Shown: positions 3-24,538 of the stretch, piece after piece
Layout: each line of letters begins with the position of its first letter
How positions within the stretch are numbered: the first letter of the stretch is position 1
Assembly: GCA_016875225.1 (NCBI GenBank)
Contig: VGRW01000013.1
Location: 1-63,236, forward strand
Origin: Deltaproteobacteria bacterium
Lineage (GTDB): Bacteria > Myxococcota_A > UBA9160 > SZUA-336
Direction: 5' to 3'
Length of the DNA stretch: 63,236 nucleotides
The notes under the pieces: model-generated
Databases searched by the model: none
What the model saw: the letters and a program-made list of their open reading frames with translations, nothing else
What the model was told of the DNA's origin: nothing
Translations under genes and position numbers: made by a program

Positions 3-44
3 TTCGAGCAGGATCTGCTGCTGCGACCCGGAAGCGGGACCTAG
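3..44 (+). CDS. 3' end of an upstream gene (partial)
   Basis: The open frame entering from the left edge ends with the residues FEQDLLLRPGSGT and a TAG stop. The next gene begins only 3 bases later, so the two are probably co-transcribed. An FtsX-type permease is usually preceded by its ABC ATPase, so this may be the tail of that ATP-binding subunit. Only 13 codons are visible and no motif can be read. Confidence 0.35.
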   Translation, partial: FEQDLLLRPGSGT

Positions 45-47
45 CGC

Positions 48-2636
48 GTGCCCGAGCGCCGCCGCAACACTCCGCTCTGGCTGCTGCTGTTCGTGCGCAG
101 GCTGCGCAGCCCCGAGGGACGGCTCGCGCCGCTTGCGGTGATCGCGATCGCGGTCAGCGTGACTCTCGCCACGGGGCTCGAGATGAGCTCCCGGAGTGCC
201 CAGAAGCACCTCGACACGACGGCGGAGTCGATCACGGGAGCCGCGAAGATCGAGATCGTTGCGGGTGACGTCGGCCTGGCGGAGGAGATCCTAGAGGTCG
301 CGCGAGCCACGCCGGGTGTGCGCGCGGCATCGCCGCTCGTCTCGGTGAAGCTGCGGATCGCCGATCGCGACTTCGCGCTGAACGTGATCGGGGTGGATCT
401 GCTCGCGGAAGAGGTCGTCCGAAAGACGGTGATCGAGAGACACGGGCTCGAGATACGAGATCCACTCAGGCTGCTGGCCGGCCCGAGCTCGGTCGTCGTG
501 ACCGAAGCGCTGCTCGATCGCCTCGATCTGGGAGACGACTATCGCGAGGGCCGAGCCGTCGAGATTCCCGTGCGCGCGAACGGCCGCGATGCAAGCCTCA
601 GCGTGCAGGGTGTCCTTCGCCCGACCGGGATCGCGGCCGCGTTCAGCGGGCAGGTCGCGGTCATGGATGTGTACGCCGCGCAGATTCTCGGCGGCAGAGC
701 GGGGATGCTCGACCGGATCGACATCGTTCCCGAGCCGGCGCAGGACGTCCCGGCCCTGATCTCGGCGCTCGGCGCGAAGCTGTCGGGGCGAGCGACGGTG
801 CAGAGGTCATCCGCCCGGTCGCGTGTCGCCGAGGATCTGCTGGGCATGGTGAAGAAGGCGGCGCTGATTCTCTCGGGAGCAGCGGCGCTGGTCGCCTGCC
901 TCCTCACCTATGCGACGACCGCGCAATGGGTGGAGCGGCAGAGGCGTCAGCTCGCGACGCTGCGCGCGGTGGGAATGGAGGCGCGGCGAGTCGAGCGGAT
1001 GATCCTCGCCGAGGTCACTCTGCTCGCGGTGATCGGGACCGCGCTCGGGATCGCCGGCGGTGTCGCTGTCTCGCCGCCACTGCTCGCGACGCTCTCCGAG
1101 TTCCTCGAAGTCGTCGCGATCGAGAGGTTCGAGGGGGTATCGCTGGCGCCCACGACGCTGTGGATCGCGAGCTTCGTCGGGCTGGGCGCGGGAATCACGG
1201 GCGGCGCACTGCCCGCTCGCAGGGCCGCAAGCCGTTTCAGCCTCGATTCGCTGGATCGGGAACCCGCCCGAGGCCGTGGACGGTCCGTGCGCATCTGGGT
1301 GGCCATGCTGGCGCTCACCGCGTTCGCGCTGCTCTTCGCCTCGGGCAGCGGGATCGCCGCCGGCTCGGCGATGGTGCGCCTGGGCGCGCTGCTCTTCTCG
1401 GGCATCCTCGCGATCCTCGCGCTCGCTCCGCACGGACTCGGCTTGCTGCGCTTCGCGCTCCGGCCCCTCCAGCTCTACCGACCCGCCGTCGGGCACCTGA
1501 CGACCCGCCTGTTCCGCATGCGGCCGTGGACGTTCGCGATCTCCCTCACCGCGATCGCCTCTCTGGTCGGCACCCTGCTCACCGTGTTCCTGCTCATCGC
1601 GACCGTCCGCTCGGCGTTCGAGCGCTGGGCCGAGTCCCGCTTTCCGGGCGATCCGATCCTGGTGCTTCCGTTCTCCCTGTCCGACCCGATCGGCGGCGAC
1701 TTCCTCTCTTCCGAATCGATCGCGGCGATTCGGGCGACGCCCGGTGTCGTCGCGGTGAGCGAGCAGTACAAGGGTGACGCGACGATCCTGTTCCGGGGCC
1801 AGGAGGTGCCGCTGGTCGCTATGACGATGAGTGTCGTAGCCAGGCATGGACACATTCCCGGCATCGATCGCCGGTCTGCGGATCTGGCCGCGGACCTGAG
1901 CAACGGCGCGGTCGCGGTGTCCCCAGGATTCGTGAAAGCGTTCGGCCTCGGCACGGGGGACTCCATCGAGCTCGACACCTCACACGGGGTGCAACGGTTC
2001 GAGATTGCCGGGCTCTACGAAGACTTCGGGGAGACCACCGGATCCATCCTGCTGGACATCGCCGCGTTCGACCGCCATTGGAAGCGACCCGGTGCCTCGA
2101 TCGCGGTCGCTTGGACCGATTCACCATCGGAGTCTGTCGTCGACGCGATCCGCCGCAGGGCAGCAGGCCTTCAGGATCTGTACTTCGCGAGCGGCCGCGA
2201 CATCGTCGCGGTGAATCGCAGGTTGACGCAGGTGTTCTCCTCGACACTGCAGGCTCTCGGTGCGTTCATGGCGGCCCTCGGCGCGATCGGCGTGATGGTT
2301 CTGCTCACCGGGATCGTGAGCGAACGGCGTCGCGATCTCGCGGTTCTTCGCGCGGCTGGAGCCGAGCCGCGACAGCTCGTCGAGGTCGTCCTCGTAGACG
2401 CGTTCGCACTGGGCGCAGCCGGTGCGGGTCTCGGAGTCGCGTTGGGATTCGCCTGCGCGGAGCCGGCCGCTGACATCCTGCGCGAGTCGTTCGGCTGGAT
2501 TCTCGAGCAGCGCTGGACCGCGGCCGAGCTTCCAGCACTGATTGCCGGCGCGGTCATCGCCTCGGTGCTCGGAGCGGCGCTTCCAGCGCTCTCTGCCTAT
2601 CGGACGGCGTCTGACGAGGTCGTCGGTCCCGAGTGA
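48..2636 (+). CDS. FtsX/MacB-type ABC transporter permease
   Basis: A GTG start just after the upstream stop opens an 862-residue inner-membrane protein. A transmembrane helix near residues 28-46 is followed by a periplasmic MacB_PCD-like region. An FtsX permease block lies at about 270-395 and is flagged by RRQLATLRAVGMEARRVERM. Further membrane segments sit at about 410-510. A second extracytoplasmic region is followed by a second FtsX block at about 745-850 with SERRRDLAVLRAAGAEPRQL. The duplicated FtsX layout and length match large permeases that move lipoproteins, peptides or lipids with a separate ATPase. The substrate cannot be inferred. The ATPase is expected immediately upstream, outside the window. 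Confidence 0.85.
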   Translation: MPERRRNTPLWLLLFVRRLRSPEGRLAPLAVIAIAVSVTLATGLEMSSRSAQKHLDTTAESITGAAKIEIVAGDVGLAEEILEVARATPGVRAASPLVSVKLRIADRDFALNVIGVDLLAEEVVRKTVIERHGLEIRDPLRLLAGPSSVVVTEALLDRLDLGDDYREGRAVEIPVRANGRDASLSVQGVLRPTGIAAAFSGQVAVMDVYAAQILGGRAGMLDRIDIVPEPAQDVPALISALGAKLSGRATVQRSSARSRVAEDLLGMVKKAALILSGAAALVACLLTYATTAQWVERQRRQLATLRAVGMEARRVERMILAEVTLLAVIGTALGIAGGVAVSPPLLATLSEFLEVVAIERFEGVSLAPTTLWIASFVGLGAGITGGALPARRAASRFSLDSLDREPARGRGRSVRIWVAMLALTAFALLFASGSGIAAGSAMVRLGALLFSGILAILALAPHGLGLLRFALRPLQLYRPAVGHLTTRLFRMRPWTFAISLTAIASLVGTLLTVFLLIATVRSAFERWAESRFPGDPILVLPFSLSDPIGGDFLSSESIAAIRATPGVVAVSEQYKGDATILFRGQEVPLVAMTMSVVARHGHIPGIDRRSADLAADLSNGAVAVSPGFVKAFGLGTGDSIELDTSHGVQRFEIAGLYEDFGETTGSILLDIAAFDRHWKRPGASIAVAWTDSPSESVVDAIRRRAAGLQDLYFASGRDIVAVNRRLTQVFSSTLQALGAFMAALGAIGVMVLLTGIVSERRRDLAVLRAAGAEPRQLVEVVLVDAFALGAAGAGLGVALGFACAEPAADILRESFGWILEQRWTAAELPALIAGAVIASVLGAALPALSAYRTASDEVVGPE

Positions 2637-6628: not shown

Positions 6629-8218
6629 TCAGCGCCACGCGCGCGCTCCGGGCTTGGGGGGATCGGCGGGGCCGCCGGCGAAGCACTGCGCGATCGCCAT
6701 CCAGCGCGCGGCCACGTCGCCCACCACCCCAAGCGCGGTGTCGGCGATGTTCCGGCCCTGCGTCACCACGTGGCAGAAGTCTACGGCGGTTCCGGTCACG
6801 CTGTCGCTCGCGTTCTCGGCGTTCCACTCCCAGATCGCCCCCGACGGCGCGACCAGCCGCACCCGCGGCGGCGCGCCGGGCACGGGCAGGCCGCGGTTGG
6901 CGAAGGTCCAGCCGAAGGTCTTCATGCCGATCTCGGCGATGTGCTTGATGCGGTCGTTGTACGTGCGCTGCACGTGCAGCAGGTCGTACACGTCCTGGCC
7001 GTGCGCCCAGGTCTCCATGAAGCGCGCGGTGGTGAACATGCGCACGCCCATGTCGGGGCCGAACCAGGGCAGCCGGCGCTTGGGGTCGGACTGGCCGAGC
7101 TCGCGCGCCATGGCGTGGCAGGTCTGGTGCCAGCGCGTGAGCAGCTCCTGCGGGGACAGGTCGCCCAGCGAGCGCCGCGTGTGCTCGGCGTTCGAGCCGC
7201 CGGCCTTCATCGACTCGATCAGCCGATTACGCTCCGTGGCGAACGCCTCCGGGTCGGTCAGCGCGAGCATCGAGACCTTGTCGAAGAAGTGCAGGTGCGC
7301 GACGACGTCCCACGGCGTCCAGCCCAGGAACGGCGTGGGGCGCGACCAGTCCGCTGGCGCGAGCGTACGCAGAAATGCGTGCAGCTCGTCGGCTTCGGCG
7401 ATCAGGTCCAGGCTCTCTTGCAGCATCGCGGCTCCCTTCGATCCGTCGGTCTTCGGTGCAGCGGCCCAGCTCGGCGCGCGCTTCTCGCGGAACGCTTTCA
7501 CACCCTCGGCGGCCTCGGCCCCGGCGAAGAGACCGGCCGAGAGCTTGGTGGCCCAGCGCATCGCCTCGGCGGCGTCGAGCTTGGGCACCTGGTAGACCAG
7601 ACTTTTGGCGACGCCGATCGCTTCCGGCCCGCCGAGCCGCAGGTCTTCGAGCACCTCGCCGACGGCCGCGTCGAGCGACTCGCGCGGCACCGCGCGGTTG
7701 ATCAGGCCGAGCTCCGCGGCGCGCGCGGCGGGGAAGCGGTTGCCGCGCATGAACGCCTCGAGCGCGTCGGCGCGGCGCATCTTGGGCAGGCAGACCACCG
7801 AGATGATCGCGGGGGCGACGCCGAGCCGGACCTCGGTGAAGCCGAACTTCACGTCTTCCGCCGCGATCGAGATGTCGAGCGCGGCGGCCAGGCCGTTTCC
7901 GCCGCCCATCACGTGCCCGGCGATGCGGCCGATGATCGGCCGCGGCGAGGTCTGGATCGCCGCGAGCAGATCGTCGAAGCCGCCGCCGCTCGCGCTCGCG
8001 GTGGCGCTCGCGCCGCGCTCCTTCAGGTTGGCGCCGGCGCAGAAGCTCGGGCCCTCGTTGGTGATCACGAGCGCGCGGAGCGCGGGGTCGGCGTTCACCG
8101 CGGCGATCGCGTCGAGCAGGCCGCGGATCAGCGCGCTGCCCAGCGCGTTTCGGGACTCCTGGTCGACCAGCGTCGCGGTCATGATGCCGCGATCGACCGT
8201 GATCCGAACCGGGTCCAT
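6629..8218 (-). CDS. fusion of enoyl-CoA hydratase (crotonase) and TIGR03084-family protein
   Basis: One uninterrupted 529-codon frame starts at an ATG with AGGAGG upstream. Residues 1-262 are a crotonase with oxyanion-hole segments FCAGANLKE and GHVMGGGNGLAAALD. Its active-site strand FGFTEVRLGVAPAIIS is like methylglutaconyl-CoA/isohexenyl-glutaconyl-CoA hydratases. From M265 on, the sequence is a TIGR03084-type protein (DinB/maleylpyruvate-isomerase-like fold, WDVVAHLHFFDKVSML and ETWAHGQDVYDLL). No stop separates them. However, codon 265 is an ATG with AAGGGAG just upstream, so the second domain may also be made on its own. Normally these are separate genes. Confidence 0.8.
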   Translation of the reverse strand: MDPVRITVDRGIMTATLVDQESRNALGSALIRGLLDAIAAVNADPALRALVITNEGPSFCAGANLKERGASATASASGGGFDDLLAAIQTSPRPIIGRIAGHVMGGGNGLAAALDISIAAEDVKFGFTEVRLGVAPAIISVVCLPKMRRADALEAFMRGNRFPAARAAELGLINRAVPRESLDAAVGEVLEDLRLGGPEAIGVAKSLVYQVPKLDAAEAMRWATKLSAGLFAGAEAAEGVKAFREKRAPSWAAAPKTDGSKGAAMLQESLDLIAEADELHAFLRTLAPADWSRPTPFLGWTPWDVVAHLHFFDKVSMLALTDPEAFATERNRLIESMKAGGSNAEHTRRSLGDLSPQELLTRWHQTCHAMARELGQSDPKRRLPWFGPDMGVRMFTTARFMETWAHGQDVYDLLHVQRTYNDRIKHIAEIGMKTFGWTFANRGLPVPGAPPRVRLVAPSGAIWEWNAENASDSVTGTAVDFCHVVTQGRNIADTALGVVGDVAARWMAIAQCFAGGPADPPKPGARAWR

Positions 8219-8238: not shown

Positions 8239-9018
8239 CTAGCGGCCGCGGAATGTGGGCTTGCGCTTCTCGAGGAAGGCGCGCACGCCCTCCTTCGTGT
8301 CCTCGCTCACCAGGTTCACGCTCTGCGCGGCGGCCTCGGCGTCGAGCGCCTCCGAGAGCCCGATCCCGAACGAGTTCGAGAGCAGCCTCTTCGAGAGCTG
8401 CAGCGCGAGCGGCGCGCTGGCCGAGAGCCGCTCGGCCCAGTCCGCCACGAAGGCGTCGAGCTCGGCGTCGGGCACGACGCGGTTCACAAGGCCCATGCGC
8501 TCGGCCTCGCGCGCGGAGAGGATGTCGGCGAAGAACGCCAGCTCCTTCGCCTTGTGCATGCCGACCAGGCGCGGCAGGAGCCAGCTGCCGCCGAAGTCGA
8601 GCGAGAGCCCGCGGCGGGCGAAGATCTCGGAGAAGCGCGCGCTCTCGCCGGCCACGACCAGATCGCAGCCGAGCGCCAGGTTCATGCCCGCGCCGACCGC
8701 GTCGCCGTTCACCTTCGCGATCGTCGGCTTGCCGAGCTCGTGCAGCGCGATCGCGGCGGCGTTCACCGGGACCATCGCGTGAAGCGGGTGCGCCTGCGCG
8801 TTCGAAGCCGCCACCCCGCCCAGGTCCGCGCCCGCGCAGAACGCGCCGCCCGCGCCCGTGATCACCAGCACGCGATCGCTGGGGTTCGTCGAGACCTCGT
8901 GCAGCAGGCGCCGCAGCTCGTCCCACATTCCCGGCCCGAACGCGTTCTTCCGCTGCGGGCGATTCAGCGTCAGGGTGGCGACGCCGTTCGGACCGCGTTC
9001 GAGGAGGATGTCGCTCAA
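8239..9018 (-). CDS. enoyl-CoA hydratase/isomerase (crotonase) family protein
   Basis: This 259-residue crotonase is first in the minus-strand operon. It has FCAGADLGG and NGDAVGAGMNLALGCDLV for the CoA oxyanion hole. The active-site segment FSEIFARRGLSLDFGGSWLLPRLVG keeps a first-position Glu but has Asp where hydratases usually have the second Glu. This is often seen in PaaG-like or isomerase-type members. The C-terminus VRAFLEKRKPTFRGR is typical. It is followed after 20 bases by the crotonase-TIGR03084 fusion. Confidence 0.88.
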   Translation of the reverse strand: MSDILLERGPNGVATLTLNRPQRKNAFGPGMWDELRRLLHEVSTNPSDRVLVITGAGGAFCAGADLGGVAASNAQAHPLHAMVPVNAAAIALHELGKPTIAKVNGDAVGAGMNLALGCDLVVAGESARFSEIFARRGLSLDFGGSWLLPRLVGMHKAKELAFFADILSAREAERMGLVNRVVPDAELDAFVADWAERLSASAPLALQLSKRLLSNSFGIGLSEALDAEAAAQSVNLVSEDTKEGVRAFLEKRKPTFRGR

Positions 9019-9112: not shown

Positions 9113-10776
9113 ATGCCGCTGCCCACCTTACTCGCGCCGCCCCTGCGATCGACCCTCGACCCGCGCTCGGAGTCCTACGCCGAGAACCGCGCCGCGATGC
9201 TCGCGAAGCTGGCTGAGATCGACCTCCTGCTCGACGAGGCCGAAGCCGGCGGCGGCGCGTACCACCACGAGCGTCTGGCCAAGCGCGGCAAGCTCCCGGT
9301 GCGCGAGCGCATAGCGCTTGCGCTCGATCCCGACAGCCCGTTCCTCGAGATCAGCCCGCTTGCCGCGTACAACTCCTCGTACACGATCGGCGGCGGCGCG
9401 GTGCTCGGGATCGGGATCATCGCGGGCGTGGAGTGCGTGATCTTCGCCAACGACCCGACCGTGCTCGGCGGCGCGCTCACGCCGTACGTCTCGAAGAAGT
9501 GGATGCGCGCGCTCGAGATCTCGCGCGAGAACCGCATGCCGTACGTGAGCTTCGTCGAGTCGGCCGGCGCCGACCTGCGCATGCAGAGCGCCACGCGCAG
9601 CAAGGACGACAGCGGCAGCACCGCGGCCGGCGCGCGCGTCGACCACTTCGCCGAGACCGGCCGCTTCTTCTACGAGATGATCGAGCTGTCCAAGCTCGAG
9701 ATCCCGACGGTGTGCGTGGTGTTCGGATCGTCGACGGCGGGCGGCGCGTACCAGCCGGGAATGTCGGACTACAACATCGTGATCAAGGAGCAGTCGAAGA
9801 TCTTCCTGGCCGGCCCGCCGCTGGTGAAGATGGCGACCGGCGAGGAGAGCGACGACGAGTCGCTGGGCGGCGCGCAGATGCACGCGGAGGTCTCCGGCCT
9901 GGCCGAGTACTTCGCCGAGGACGAGCGCGACGCGCTGCGGCTGTGTCGCGAGGTGGTGTCGCACCTGAACTGGCGCAAGCCCGGCCCGCCGCCAAGTCTT
10001 CGCGCCGACCCGCCGCTGCTCGACCCCGAGGAGCTGCTGGGCCTGGTGAGCCCGGACCTGCGAAGGCCGGTCGACGTGCGCGACCTGATCGGCCGCGTCG
10101 TCGACGGCTCGCGCTTCGAGGAGTTCAAGCCGCGCTACGGCAGCACGCTGGTCTGCGGCTGGGCGAGCGTGCACGGCTACCCGGTCGGAATCCTCGGCAA
10201 CAACGGCGTGCTCGACCCGCAGTCCGCCGAGAAGGCCGCGCACTTCGTGCAGCTCTGCAATCAGATCGACACGCCGCTCTTGTTCCTGCAGAACCTGACC
10301 GGCTTCGTGGTCGGGCGCGACTTCGAGCGCGCGGGGATCATCAAGAAGGGCTCGCAGATGATCAACGCGGTCACCAACTCGACGGTGCCGCACATCACGC
10401 TGATCTTCGGCAACTCCTACGGCGCCGGCACCTACGCCATGTCGGGCCGCGCGTTCAACAACCGCTTCACGTTCATCTGGCCCAGCGCCAAGATCGCCGT
10501 GATGGGCGGCAAGCAGATCGCCGGCGTCATGTCGATCGTGCGCCGCGGCCAGGCCGCGCGCAAAGGCGAGCCCTTCGACGAAGAGGCCGACGCGAAGATC
10601 GTGGCCGCGGTCGAAGCCGCGCAGGATCGCGGCTCGGTCGCGCTCGAGGCGTCGGGCGCGATCAGCGACGACGGAATCATCGACCCGCGCGACACGCGCA
10701 CGGTGCTCGGTATCTGCCTCTCGGCCGTTCGCAACGCGCCCGTCGAGGGCGCCGCCGGCTACGGAGTGTTCCGACT

Positions 10777-10780
<4 letters not shown>
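9113..10780 (+). CDS. acyl-CoA carboxylase, carboxyltransferase (beta) subunit
   Basis: This 555-residue crotonase-fold carboxyltransferase starts at an ATG with GGAG 6 bases upstream. Landmarks are ERLAKRGKLPVRERIALALD at the N-terminus, the first acyl-CoA loop ESAGADLRMQ, SSTAGGAYQPGMSDYNI, and the C-terminal half with NNGVLDPQSAEKAAHFVQL and the glycine loop FGNSYGAGTYAMSGRAF. It transfers carboxyl from biotin to an acyl-CoA. With the alpha subunit, an AtuA homologue and crotonases beside it, a methylcrotonyl- or geranyl-CoA-type substrate is plausible but not provable here. The stop overlaps the alpha-subunit start (GTGA). Confidence 0.9.
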
Positions 10781-12731
<1,951 letters not shown>

Positions 12732-12732
<1 letters not shown>

Positions 12733-14486
12733 TGGCAGAGCCGATCCGCATCGCGAACTGCTCGGGCTTCTTCGGCGACCGGCTGTCGGCCGCGCGCGAG
12801 ATGGTCGAGGGCGGACCCATCCACGTGCTGACCGGCGACTGGCTCGCCGAGCTCACCATGCTGATCCTGGCGCGCACGCGCGCGAAGCGCCCCGGCGGCG
12901 GCTACGCGTACACGTTCGTGAAGCAGATGGAGCAGGTGATGGGCACCTGCCTCGACAAGGGAATCAAAGTGGTGTCGAACGCCGGCGGCCTCGATCCCGA
13001 GGGCTGCGCCGATGCGGTGGCCGAGGTCGCGAAGAAGCTGGGGCTTCACCCCAAGATCGCCTTCGTGCGCGGCGACGACCTGATGCCGCGCATCCAGGAG
13101 CTGATCGCCGCCGACCAGCTGCGCAATTTCGAGACCGGCGAGCCGATCAAGGAGGCGCGCTTCCTCACCGCCAACGCCTACTTCGGCTGCTGGGGCATCG
13201 TCGACGCGCTGCAGCGCGGCGCGGACATCGTGATCACCGGCCGCATCACCGACGCCGCGCTGGTCTGCGGGCCCGCGGCCTGGCACCACGGCTGGTCGCG
13301 CACCGACTGGGACGCGCTCGCCGGCGGCGTGGTGGCCGGCCACGTGATCGAGTGCAGCACGCAGGCGACCGGCGGCAACTACTCGTTCTTCACCGAGGTT
13401 CCGGGCCTGGAGCGCGCGGGCTTTCCCTGGGCAGAAGTGGCCGCCGACGGCTCGTCGCTGATCGGCAAGCACGACGGCACCGGCGGCGAGGTTTCGATCG
13501 GCACCGTGACCTCGCAGCTCCTGTACGAGATCGGCGGCCCGCGCTACCTGGGCCCCGACGTCACCACGCGCTTCGACACGATCCTGCTCGACCAGGTCGC
13601 GCGCGACCGCGTGCGCATCCACGGCACGAAGGGCGAGCCGCCCCCGCCGACGCTGAAGGTCTGCCTGAACCGCGCGGGCGGCTTCCGCAACGACCTGAAC
13701 GTGTGTCTGGTCGGGCTCGACGTCGAGGCGAAGGCGCGGCTGGTCGAGGAGGCGTTCTGGACCGCCTGCCCGTACCGGCCGAGTGACTTCGCGCAGGTGA
13801 CTACGCGCGTGGTGCGCACCGACAAGCCGGACCCGGAGACGAACGAGCAGGCCGTGGCCATGCTGCGCATCAGCGTGAAGGATCCGGACCCGAACAAAGT
13901 CGGGCGCGCGTTCTCGAACGCGCTGATGGAGACGGCGCTCGCCACCATTCCGGGATTCTTCGGCGTGGGCGGCGGGCCCGGCGAGGGCCACCCGTTCGGC
14001 GTGTACGAGCCGGCGATGATTCCCGCCGCGGCCGCGAACCAGGAAGTGGTGATTCTCGGCGGCTCGACGCACACCGTGTCGTCGGTGATCCCGGGCGCGA
14101 CGGTCCGCGTCGAGGGTCGCGAAGGCCCCAAGGCGCAGATTCCCGTCGGTCGCACGGTGCGCGCTCCGCTCGGCCGCGTCTTCGGCAGCCGCTCCGGCGA
14201 CAAGGGCAGCAACGCGAATCTCGGCGTGTTCGCGCGCAGCGACGCCGCGTGGACGTGGCTCGACGAGAACCTGACCACCGAGAAGCTGCGCGCGCTTCTG
14301 CCGGAAGTCGCGGAGCTTCCGGTCGAGCGCCATCGCCTGCCCGCGATCCGCTCGCTGAACTTCGTGATCCACGGGCTGCTCGAGGAGGGCGTCGCGGCGT
14401 CGACGCGGCAGGACCCGCAGGCCAAGAGCCTGGGTGAATGGCTCCGCGCGCGCGTGGTCGATCTGCCGGAGGCGCTGCTGTCTTGA
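12732..14486 (+). CDS. AtuA-family protein (DUF1446), acyclic terpene utilisation type
   Basis: This 584-residue protein is coupled to the carboxylase by a TGATG overlap, with GGAGG upstream of its ATG. It shows the AtuA-family opening IANCSGFFGDRLSAAREM and TGDWLAELTMLILARTRAK. Other family segments are VVSNAGGLDPEGCAD, ITGRITDAALVCGPAAWH, ECSTQATGGNYSFF and GSRSGDKGSNANLGVFAR. In Pseudomonas, atuA lies with geranyl-CoA carboxylase genes and is needed for citronellol/geranylate growth, but its reaction is unknown. The same linkage here supports a role in degrading a branched or terpenoid acyl-CoA. Confidence 0.88.
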
Positions 14487-15190
14487 TGGGCGCGCGACCC
14501 GAGCGGCTGGCGCAGATCCCGCTTCCGGGTCTGCGCCCGCCCAAGCCGCTTCTCGACCCCGAGGTCGAGCGCAGACTCACGCCGCGCCAGCTCGAGCTGC
14601 TCGACGCGCTCGACGATCTGGTCGTGAGCGGCGGGCTCGCCGAGCTCACCATGGCGGAGATCGCCACGCGCACGAACTGTTCGCTGCGCACGCTGTACGG
14701 AATCGCGCAGAGCAAAGAGGAGCTCGTGCTCGCCGTCGTCGACCGGCGCCTGCACGGGATCGGCCGGCGCGCGATCGCGTCGCTCGACCCGTCGCTCCCG
14801 CCGATGGACGCGCTGCTCGCCTACATGCGCGCGGTGAGCGAGGCGATCGACCCGGAGCGCAACGCGCTCTCGCGCGAGTTCGCCGACCTGCCCGGCGGCC
14901 AGCGCATGCTCGACGCGCACGAGCGCTACGTCGCCGCCGTCCTGCAGTGCCTGCTCGACCGCGCCGTCGCCGAAGGCCAGATCGCCGCGTGCGACACCGC
15001 CTCGGTCGCGCACCTGCTCGGCGGCCTCGGCCGCGAGTTCGCACGCCGCGAAGCCGCCGGCGCGTCGCGCGCCTCCTCGCGAACGACGGTGAAGGAGCTC
15101 GCCGACATCATCCTGCGCGGGCTGGTCGTGCGCCCGAGCGCCGACGCGCGCACACCGCGGCGGAGTCGGAGCCGAGTCAGGCGGCGCTGA
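14486..15190 (+). CDS. TetR/AcrR-family transcriptional regulator
   Basis: The 234-residue protein starts at an ATG that shares a base with the AtuA stop. The N-terminal helix-turn-helix is readable: LTMAEIATRTNCSLRTLYGIAQSKEELV. The C-terminal ligand domain is followed by a basic tail (RTPRRSRSRVRRR). As the last gene of the carboxylase operon it is a likely ligand-responsive repressor of that operon, and possibly of the divergent crotonase arm, binding in the 9019-9112 gap. An unusually long N-terminal arm (about 35 residues) precedes the DNA-binding domain. Confidence 0.85.
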   Translation: MGARPERLAQIPLPGLRPPKPLLDPEVERRLTPRQLELLDALDDLVVSGGLAELTMAEIATRTNCSLRTLYGIAQSKEELVLAVVDRRLHGIGRRAIASLDPSLPPMDALLAYMRAVSEAIDPERNALSREFADLPGGQRMLDAHERYVAAVLQCLLDRAVAEGQIAACDTASVAHLLGGLGREFARREAAGASRASSRTTVKELADIILRGLVVRPSADARTPRRSRSRVRRR

Positions 15191-22283: not shown

Positions 22284-22628
22284 ATGGCCTGCTGCGCCTT
22301 CGCGCTCTTCATCCTCGGGCAGATCGCCGCGGGATTCGTGGCGCTGCGGCGCGCCGTGCCGTTCGGCCTGCTCGGCCGGCCCTCGCTCGAGCCGACGGTG
22401 AACGCGGCGACGGTCTGGCAGCTCGGCGCGCAACTCGACCCCGTTGCGCCGGGCGCGGGCGCCGCGCGCTGGCGCTCCGCGGGCCGTGCCGTGGCCGCCG
22501 CCGCGCTGCTCGAGCTCGCTCTGGTCGGCGCCGCAGCGGCCTGGGGACTGCACGGCGCGCACGCCTCGGCGCACGCCGCGGAGATGCTCGACACCGACAC
22601 GTTCTGGTGTGGAAGGATGCTCCCATGA
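22284..22628 (+). CDS. small membrane protein coupled to the linalool dehydratase-like gene
   Basis: A 114-residue protein starts at ATG 22284 (a GTG immediately before is also possible). Two hydrophobic helices span about 2-24 and 68-90, and the C-terminus contains HASAHAAEMLDTDTFWCGRM. The stop overlaps the start of the 637-residue gene downstream (ATGA), which implies a paired function. I do not recognise the family. Confidence 0.6.
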   Translation: MACCAFALFILGQIAAGFVALRRAVPFGLLGRPSLEPTVNAATVWQLGAQLDPVAPGAGAARWRSAGRAVAAAALLELALVGAAAAWGLHGAHASAHAAEMLDTDTFWCGRMLP

Positions 22629-24538
22629 CGACGATGGACCACGTCTTCCCGCGCAGTGTCGCAACGCAGGGCAAGGGCCCCGTCACCGCCGCGCGTCAGC
22701 GGCGCACCGCGCTGATCTACGCCGCGCTCTGCGCGCTCGGATTCCTGCCTGTCCTTGCGGGGGCGCCCGCGAGCTGGCAGGCGGCGGGGCTCGGCCTGTG
22801 GCTGCCGGGCGCGGGCTTCCTGGCCGTGGGCGGATTCGCCGTGTTGCTCTTCCCGCTCACCGTCGCGCTCTTCGGCGCGTCGCTGATCGCCTGGTTCTGG
22901 TCGGGAATGGTGCTGGCGCCGCTGATCGTCTGGCTGGGCGCGGCCGCGCTCGCGGGCGCAGCGGCGGACGAATCGATCTGGGCAGGCGCGACGTTCCTGG
23001 TGCCGGTGTTCTCGCTCGCGACGCTCTCGTACTTCCGCAGCCGCGGCACGCGCAGGCGCGCCGCGAAGCGCGAGAAGCAGCAGGCGCGCGCGGCGTTCGT
23101 GCCGGCGTCGTGGGCCGAGGTCCAGAAGCGCGCGGCGGCGCGCCCGAGCCCCGCGGCGCGCGAGCTCTCGGTCGATCAGATCGAATCCGTGCGCTACGCG
23201 CTCGATCGCGCGCTGCAGCCGGCCGACCGCTGGGACGGCTTCGACATCATCGACCAGTTCCAGCCGGCGGCGCTGCGCTACCAGCTCAACCATCTCGGCT
23301 TCGCGCTCGCGCTGTACCAGTGTCACTACGCGCCGAGCTTCGGCGGCCATCTGGGTCTGGCGCAGCGCAACCTGATCGAGCGCTACCTGCAGCGGAGGGT
23401 CTGGGGCTACTGGGTCTACGAGTCGTGCTGGGGCCACCTGAACTTCACGAATTTCGATCCGGTCGCGCGCGACAACATCATGCTCACCGGCTGGTTCGGC
23501 ATGCACGTCGGCCAGTACATGGTCTCGTCGGGCGATCGGCGCTACGGCGAGCCGGGCAGCCTGACGTTCCGCCTGAACGAGCGCACGGCGTACGTGCACG
23601 ACATCCACACGATCGCCGAATCGGTGGCGAAGGGCTTCGACCGCTCCGACTTCTGCCTGTTCCCGTGCGAGCCGAACTGGATCTACCCGATCTGCAACCA
23701 CTACGGCATGACCTGTCTGGCGGCGCACGACGCGGCCTTCGGCACCACCTACGTCTCCGACCACCTGCCGCGCTGGCAGGAGATGCTCGATCGCGAGTTC
23801 ACCGACGAGAGCGGCAGCTACATCGGCCTTCGCTCGCAGCACACCGGGATCGAGGCGCCCTTCCCCGCTGGCGAGGCGGGCTTCGCATGGTTTGCGAACT
23901 GCTTCGCGCCGGACCGCGCCCGGCGGCTCTGGGCGGTCGCGCGCGAAGAGCTCCGACCGGCGCTCGTGAACGATGCGAGCGGCGTCGCGCGGCTCGTGCT
24001 TCCCGGCCGCGGCCTCGACCCCGGCCACTACCGCTTCGGACACACCATGGACTACGCGACGATCCTGCTCTGCGCGCGCGAGTTCGGCGAGGACGAGATC
24101 GCGGAAGGCGCGCAGCGCGCGCTCGACCTGGAGTGCGGGCTTGCGACGAACGGCGGCGTGCGGCGCTACGCGCACAGCTCGAACCTGGCCAACGCGCTCG
24201 CGATCCAGGGGCGACTCGCGCGCACCGGCGACTTCCGCGCCTCGGTGGTCGAGGGCCCGCCCGCGTCGGTCCTCTCGGGCCCGCGGCTCGCCGACGCGCG
24301 CTACCCCGACGTGCTCGTCGCGAAGGCGTGGAGCGAAGGCGACGCGCTCGATCTCGTCCTGCACCCCGGAGCGAAGCCCGGCCGGCAGACGCTGGGCATC
24401 GAGCGCCTGCGTCCGCTGGCCCGCTACGCGGTGACCGGCGCGCGGGCGAGCGAGCTGGTCGCCGACGCGCGCGGCGGGGCCACGCTCGAGGTCGATCTCG
24501 ACGGACGCACGGAGCTGCGCGTCGCGCCGCGCGCCTGA
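22625..24538 (+). CDS. linalool dehydratase/isomerase-family membrane-anchored protein
   Basis: This 637-residue protein has four hydrophobic helices in residues 29-136, a basic linker, then a helical-barrel domain from about residue 180. The domain contains YQLNHLGFALALYQCHYAPS, then VYESCWGHLNFTNFDP and LTGWFGMHVGQYM. FPCEPNWIYPICNHYG follows, with cysteines at 348 and 357. Nine-residue spacing of two cysteines in this setting matches the catalytic Cys171/Cys180 pair of Castellaniella linalool dehydratase-isomerase, as I recall it. The hydrophobic N-terminal extension is unlike the secreted soluble LinD. A terpene-like alcohol substrate is possible but unproven. Confidence 0.72.
   Translation: MTTMDHVFPRSVATQGKGPVTAARQRRTALIYAALCALGFLPVLAGAPASWQAAGLGLWLPGAGFLAVGGFAVLLFPLTVALFGASLIAWFWSGMVLAPLIVWLGAAALAGAAADESIWAGATFLVPVFSLATLSYFRSRGTRRRAAKREKQQARAAFVPASWAEVQKRAAARPSPAARELSVDQIESVRYALDRALQPADRWDGFDIIDQFQPAALRYQLNHLGFALALYQCHYAPSFGGHLGLAQRNLIERYLQRRVWGYWVYESCWGHLNFTNFDPVARDNIMLTGWFGMHVGQYMVSSGDRRYGEPGSLTFRLNERTAYVHDIHTIAESVAKGFDRSDFCLFPCEPNWIYPICNHYGMTCLAAHDAAFGTTYVSDHLPRWQEMLDREFTDESGSYIGLRSQHTGIEAPFPAGEAGFAWFANCFAPDRARRLWAVAREELRPALVNDASGVARLVLPGRGLDPGHYRFGHTMDYATILLCAREFGEDEIAEGAQRALDLECGLATNGGVRRYAHSSNLANALAIQGRLARTGDFRASVVEGPPASVLSGPRLADARYPDVLVAKAWSEGDALDLVLHPGAKPGRQTLGIERLRPLARYAVTGARASELVADARGGATLEVDLDGRTELRVAPRA

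Follow-up and report, generated by a model that had tools for sequence, protein, structure and literature searches.

A membrane-anchored linalool isomerase homologue in a deltaproteobacterium and the small cysteine-bearing membrane protein gene that accompanies it

Two characterised enzymes stand closest to the locus described here. Linalool isomerase (Lis; EC 5.4.4.4, ENO87364) was described in Thauera linaloolentis (PMC4791888), and according to Marmulla et al. it is a protein of 644 residues with four helices within the first 139 residues and a cytosolic C-terminal domain (PMC4791888). Its activity resides in the inner membrane, depends on a reductant and interconverts geraniol and both linalool isomers (PMC4791888), and it is reported to lack dehydratase activity (PMC6013536; PMC4791888). 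When lis alone was expressed in E. coli, the protein reached the membrane and no activity was obtained (PMC4791888). The Thauera gene sits directly behind atuCFE (PMC4847356), in a published cluster in which atuH and atuC lie 3488 bp apart, with hypothetical proteins encoded in between (PMC4847356). The second enzyme, LinD of Castellaniella defragrans (Ldi; EC 4.2.1.127), has an (α/α)6 barrel, lacks membrane helices and is a pentamer that is secreted to the periplasm.

The window, that is, the whole stretch of 63,236 nucleotides that was analysed, contains a small gene, mxcc, followed by a large gene, lis (Table 1). Both genes are real, and the ORFs share an ATGA, in line with the original prediction of an overlapping small membrane gene. 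The 637-residue Lis protein matches Pfam Ldi (4.7e-86) and, in a PDB sequence search, LinD (8.8e-6). A scan of named genomes placed its relatives at 73 named loci, the best of which is ~60% identical over the full length, far beyond what chance would give. Among them is T. linaloolentis 47Lol (L034), whose protein is 58.4% identical to the window protein over 625 residues and which, from strain, length and position, we infer to be ENO87364. In the tree, a clade of 29 members with a local support of 100% unites the window protein with Thauera Lis. The two are also alike in length (637 and 644 residues), in the four N-terminal helices followed by an Ldi domain that is cytosolic in Thauera and probably so here, in the Cys pair, in a Trp at the position of LinD His129 and in the linkage of lis to atu genes. 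A membrane version of LinD had at first been taken for a novelty; the same architecture was already published in 2016 for the 58% identical Thauera enzyme (PMC4791888), and the window enzyme adds a member to the described Lis type.

Table 1 Features of the window (positions in nucleotides, except for the protein parts, which are in residues).
Feature	Position	Strand	Description	Basis
mxcc	22284-22628	+	114 aa, MACCAFALF..., two hydrophobic segments, Cys3-Cys4 invariant, C-terminal Cys109	
lis	22625-24538	+	637-aa membrane-anchored linalool isomerase homologue	Pfam Ldi, Thauera Lis identity, model
Lis, membrane part	~18-145			
Lis, linker helix	to 172			
Lis, Ldi (α/α)6 barrel	173-550			
Lis, β-rich C-terminal part	551-637			
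Crotonase fused to TIGR03084-type (mycothiol-type) domain	6629-8218	-		NCBIfam and Pfam
Enoyl-CoA hydratase family protein	8239-9018	-	Candidate hydratase of the Atu route	Pfam ECH_1 1.6e-58
Carboxyltransferase, atuC type	9113-10780	+	Geranyl-CoA carboxylase beta type (putative)	45% identity to Thauera gene at published atuC position; NCBIfam
Biotin carboxylase, atuF type	10777-12732	+		43% identity to Thauera gene at atuF position; NCBIfam
AtuA	12732-14486	+	Acyclic terpene utilisation protein	Pfam AtuA 2.5e-160
TetR-type regulator	14486-15190	+	Follows atuA	Pfam TetR_N 1e-6
Cytochrome P450	26442-27836	+	Closest to CYP125/CYP124/P450terp (methyl-branched, steroid or terpene hydroxylases)	PDB sequence search, best 4e-118 to CYP125MRCA

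The AlphaFold2 model of the 637-residue protein (pLDDT 92.8) has helices at residues 19–44, 70–93, 98–113 and from 122 onward, with which hydropathy agrees, so the fusion to four helices proposed originally holds. Positively charged residues precede the first membrane helix and trail the last, and the Ldi domain is inferred to face the cytosol. Residues 173–550 of the model superimpose on LinD with a Z-score of 34.5 and an r.m.s.d. of 2.6 Å over 333 residues, whereas the nearest fold after LinD is unrelated (Z 20). In Lis, the membrane part matches the catalytic domain in conservation (mean 0.56) and includes the near-invariant residues G57, P61, G62, G64, F65, W90, G94 and P99, the first five of them in a GxxxPGxGF segment. 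This degree of conservation exceeds what a plain anchor would need and thus suggests the binding of a partner or of substrate.

Active-site positions were compared in an alignment that took in LinD, secreted Ldi proteins and 74 Lis-like proteins, with the N-terminal residues of LinD up to 385 of 5i3t taken from the PDB alignment. Of the catalytic set of LinD (D39, Y45, H129, C171 and C180), the window protein has D39, C171 and C180, and Y45 and H129 are replaced. C348 and C357 correspond to C171 and C180, just as had been claimed from the sequence, and each is kept in 73 of the 74 Lis-like proteins. Further equivalents, LinD residue first, are D39/D194, Y66/Y219, M125/M286, E172/E349 and N181/N358, and nearly all 74 proteins retain D39, Y66, M125, C171, E172, C180 and N181. 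H129 is exchanged for W290 (W, F or Y in 72 of the 74), and Y45 for A200 (V, L, I or A in most), the D39 and Y45 columns being less sure than the Cys columns since they adjoin an alignment gap; C180 and Y45 are numbered C179 and Y44 in PMC12455561. Modelling against LinD, which had been proposed as a check, recovered the fold, and the alignment showed the Asp and the Cys residues to be kept and His129 and Tyr45 to be lost, at an overall identity of ~18%. Absence of the LinD acid–base residues had been named as an outcome that would count against the original prediction; for these two residues it is what we found, and it does not discriminate, because both residues are also lost in the characterised Lis of Thauera. 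We accordingly dropped the losses as evidence against activity. They mark the Lis subfamily rather than inactivity.

The fold and Cys pair held in common with LinD would also suit a LinD-like hydratase or dehydratase acting on an alkene or a tertiary alcohol (linalool to myrcene). We consider this reaction very improbable, given the exchange of Tyr45 for Ala and of His129 for Trp and the reported lack of dehydratase activity in Lis (58%), the nearest characterised relative of the window protein (PMC6013536; PMC4791888). The original proposal was right in pointing to an Ldi enzyme that takes a hydrophobic allylic alcohol as part of terpene degradation, but since Thauera Lis is reported as an isomerase without dehydratase activity, isomerisation of geraniol and linalool fits better than myrcene chemistry (PMC6013536). 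Secreted Ldi proteins from the same class (L002–L008) and phylum (L019–L022) have the Ldi domain and an identical Cys pair, and several come from genomes with the same AtuA as the window. They differ in a signal peptide-like N-terminus, the lack of a four-helix domain, and the retention of NIMYxGH, and no MxCC gene was found beside the genes that encode them.

The product of mxcc received no name from Pfam or NCBIfam, and its model consists of only two helices (residues 2–24 and 59–111; pTM 0.35). We define the MxCC family by M-x-C-C within the first residues, a hydrophobic segment thereafter and linkage to a membrane Lis, a description to which the window protein conforms. The family alignment is invariant at Cys3 and Cys4 and nearly invariant at Met1 and the C-terminal Cys. 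Family members range from 24 to 140 residues, with several actinobacterial forms of only 24–55 residues; those of 24–37 residues have only a very short hydrophobic segment at the N-terminus, and MxCC may thus be heterogeneous as a family. The family is apparently undescribed, none having been found in the open-access literature searched. Small accessory membrane proteins exist, such as those of the CydX type, which resemble MxCC in being tiny, hydrophobic and coupled to one membrane enzyme. No sequence relation is claimed, and MxCC differs in its invariant vicinal cysteines right at the N-terminus. An ORF that is short and without a Pfam or NCBIfam match could in principle be a chance ORF or a leader without protein product. 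This is scarcely credible here: the codon usage is coding-like, and MxCC and the C-terminal Cys are conserved at the protein level across Alpha-, Beta- and Gammaproteobacteria, and MxCC in actinobacteria, whether the gene lies upstream, downstream or at a distance.

Similar ORFs precede the genes of close Lis homologues and follow those of sphingomonads, and a profile of the small protein recovers the family at most Lis loci. On the tree, mxcc is upstream of lis in one clade and downstream in another, and hence its position is not simply inherited. Under strict criteria (a start codon followed by one residue, CC and a hydrophobic stretch, at most 700 bp from lis), an MxCC ORF was found at 47 of the 73 Lis loci. 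The remainder of these loci gives an expectation of 0.35, which is too high because four of the six ‘control’ hits are displaced true members. When relaxed hits are added, together with copies displaced within the locus or contig and those in other parts of the genome, 69/73 Lis loci have MxCC, and the co-occurrence that had been suggested as a check is strong. The partner was not detected at the remaining four (L066, L073, L084 and L068, the last of which is truncated by the end of its contig), and in some genomes a single mxcc accompanies two lis genes. MMCC ORFs near L007 and L008 were rejected as members, as they look like fragments of another reading (GQGAGVAS...).

The association was also followed at the genome level with a profile of the small protein, which in the source genome finds a single match, the window copy itself. 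In the sphingomonad family to which the Sphingobium locus L071 belongs, 250 genomes were covered; the profile matched nine and full-length Lis was present in ten, coinciding in eight. The small gene was thus recognised in 8 of 10 Lis genomes compared with 1 of 240 others (Fisher p=1.2e-12, the genomes being related and the events not independent). In the two Lis genomes that the profile missed, a divergent MACC gene and an MVCC–DAGK fusion adjoin lis. The profile is blind to the forms of 24–55 residues, so genome-level absence in the actinobacteria G649, G651 and G656 is uninformative. The sole orphan seen is an MxCC-like ORF of 93 residues in G448 (L119:7690, minus strand), in which Lis was not detected.

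In T. linaloolentis the MxCC gene (MGCC; L034:863-1246) lies ~8 kb upstream of lis, in the atuH–atuC interval of hypothetical genes, with an acyl-CoA ligase fragment on one side and an enoyl-CoA hydratase on the other, whereas the window gene overlaps lis. It was overlooked among the ‘hypothetical’ genes of the published atu cluster. Such distances, 5–44 kb or another contig in Thauera, Spongiibacter L063, Hydrocarboniphaga and G648, would be expected if Lis were an orthologue as described and MxCC served the pathway in a function of its own, such as terpenol uptake, efflux or tolerance, and was co-selected with Lis, as would Aureimonas-type loci in which MxCC is fused to or neighbours DAGK and is not fused to Lis. 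We hold this to be unlikely, since MxCC usually adjoins lis directly, does not occur in relatives with Atu genes and a secreted Ldi, and tracks Lis across catabolic, P450/CtaG and uppS–DAGK neighbourhoods that share little but Lis.

These neighbourhoods are diverse. Aureimonas loci (L028:8751-11900, L091:8225-11407 and L096:8243-11392) carry an operon that encodes a prenyltransferase of the undecaprenyl diphosphate synthase (uppS) type, then a Lis-like protein, a short MACC protein and finally a DAGK-family kinase, with a protein of ~200 residues and a regulator-like protein of ~120 residues at its front, possibly a polyprenol isomerase pathway. Directly 3' of a Lis-like gene, an MxCC segment is fused to a prokaryotic diacylglycerol kinase domain in Cypionkella (L099:10809-11309) and G483 (L118:2328-2840). 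Actinobacterial loci (L027:11588-12530, L086:11059 onward and L087) have a Lis-like gene and then a Caa3_CtaG gene and a MACC microprotein of 24–37 residues, with P450, ferredoxin and alcohol dehydrogenase genes in the vicinity. In Spongiibacter (L123:2619-14903), a second lis and mxcc adjoin genes that were named by eye as acyl-CoA ligase, thiolase, nitronate monooxygenase-like and acyl-CoA dehydrogenase-like, and the region is possibly a complete terpenoid degradation cluster.

The AtuA and carboxylase genes reported near lis are real, although they form an atuC–atuF–atuA cluster 8–13 kb upstream rather than an adjoining one. The Atu set of the window consists of AtuA and the carboxylase pair, which by sequence is putatively of the geranyl-CoA rather than the methylcrotonyl-CoA type. 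The same AtuA occurs in 7/7 related genomes with an Ldi protein and in 1/13 without (p=1e-4; 20 related genomes). From these homologues, the position of Thauera lis behind atuCFE and the co-occurrence of AtuA and Ldi, the likely route is from linalool to geraniol and on to geranyl-CoA degradation. No geraniol dehydrogenase (GeoA/B) was identified near the window lis. Almost nothing besides Lis and the small gene recurs in the wider neighbourhood of close Lis homologues, and neighbours beyond atu are therefore little informative. The TIGR03084 half of the crotonase fusion is 51% identical to a stand-alone gene in the Thauera atu region. Relatives of the same class (G012, G013, G014, G016, G006 and G007) combine one AtuA type with differing Ldi subfamilies, among them secreted LinD-like ones, as though the Atu pathway had stayed constant while its Ldi modules were swapped. 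The P450 gene begins 1.9 kb after lis, with which any association would be putative.

The CYP125/124-type P450 and the distant members in uppS–lis–mxcc–DAGK operons are what could be expected of an allylic isomerase for another or longer prenyl alcohol (farnesol/nerolidol, a polyprenol, or an isoprenoid or steroid side-chain alcohol) instead of C10 linalool. The high identity to linalool isomerase and the geranyl-CoA-type Atu genes in the window speak against such a substrate, to which we give a low probability.

We propose that lis and mxcc probably constitute a two-gene module for membrane-bound linalool isomerisation, in which MxCC works with Lis, most likely as an accessory subunit. Four helices would anchor Lis in the inner membrane, and the cytosolic Ldi barrel would interconvert linalool and geraniol by a cofactor-free acid–base allylic rearrangement involving the Cys348/Cys357 pair. 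Geraniol could then be oxidised and carboxylated via the AtuC/F/A route. MxCC may bind to the membrane domain of Lis and either assemble the enzyme or keep it active. Its absence could explain why lis expressed in E. coli was inactive, for which misfolding or redox may be other causes. A bolder version, which we put forward only tentatively, is that MxCC is an essential subunit of Lis whose vicinal cysteines, beside the Lis membrane domain, would serve as a redox or metal site and so maintain the catalytic cysteines in a competent state, or would gate the entry of substrate from the membrane.

Ldi enzymes are wanted for terpene alcohol production, and the lone characterised membrane member was not obtained active from E. 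coli (PMC4791888); the conserved partner gene offers a possible simple fix, namely to express both genes. What is new is an apparently undescribed family of membrane microproteins with invariant vicinal cysteines, which occurs with Lis in quite different operons. If MxCC is an essential subunit, this would account for the inactivity of recombinant Lis alone and would open up a wide family, including uppS/DAGK-linked branches that possibly act on polyprenols.
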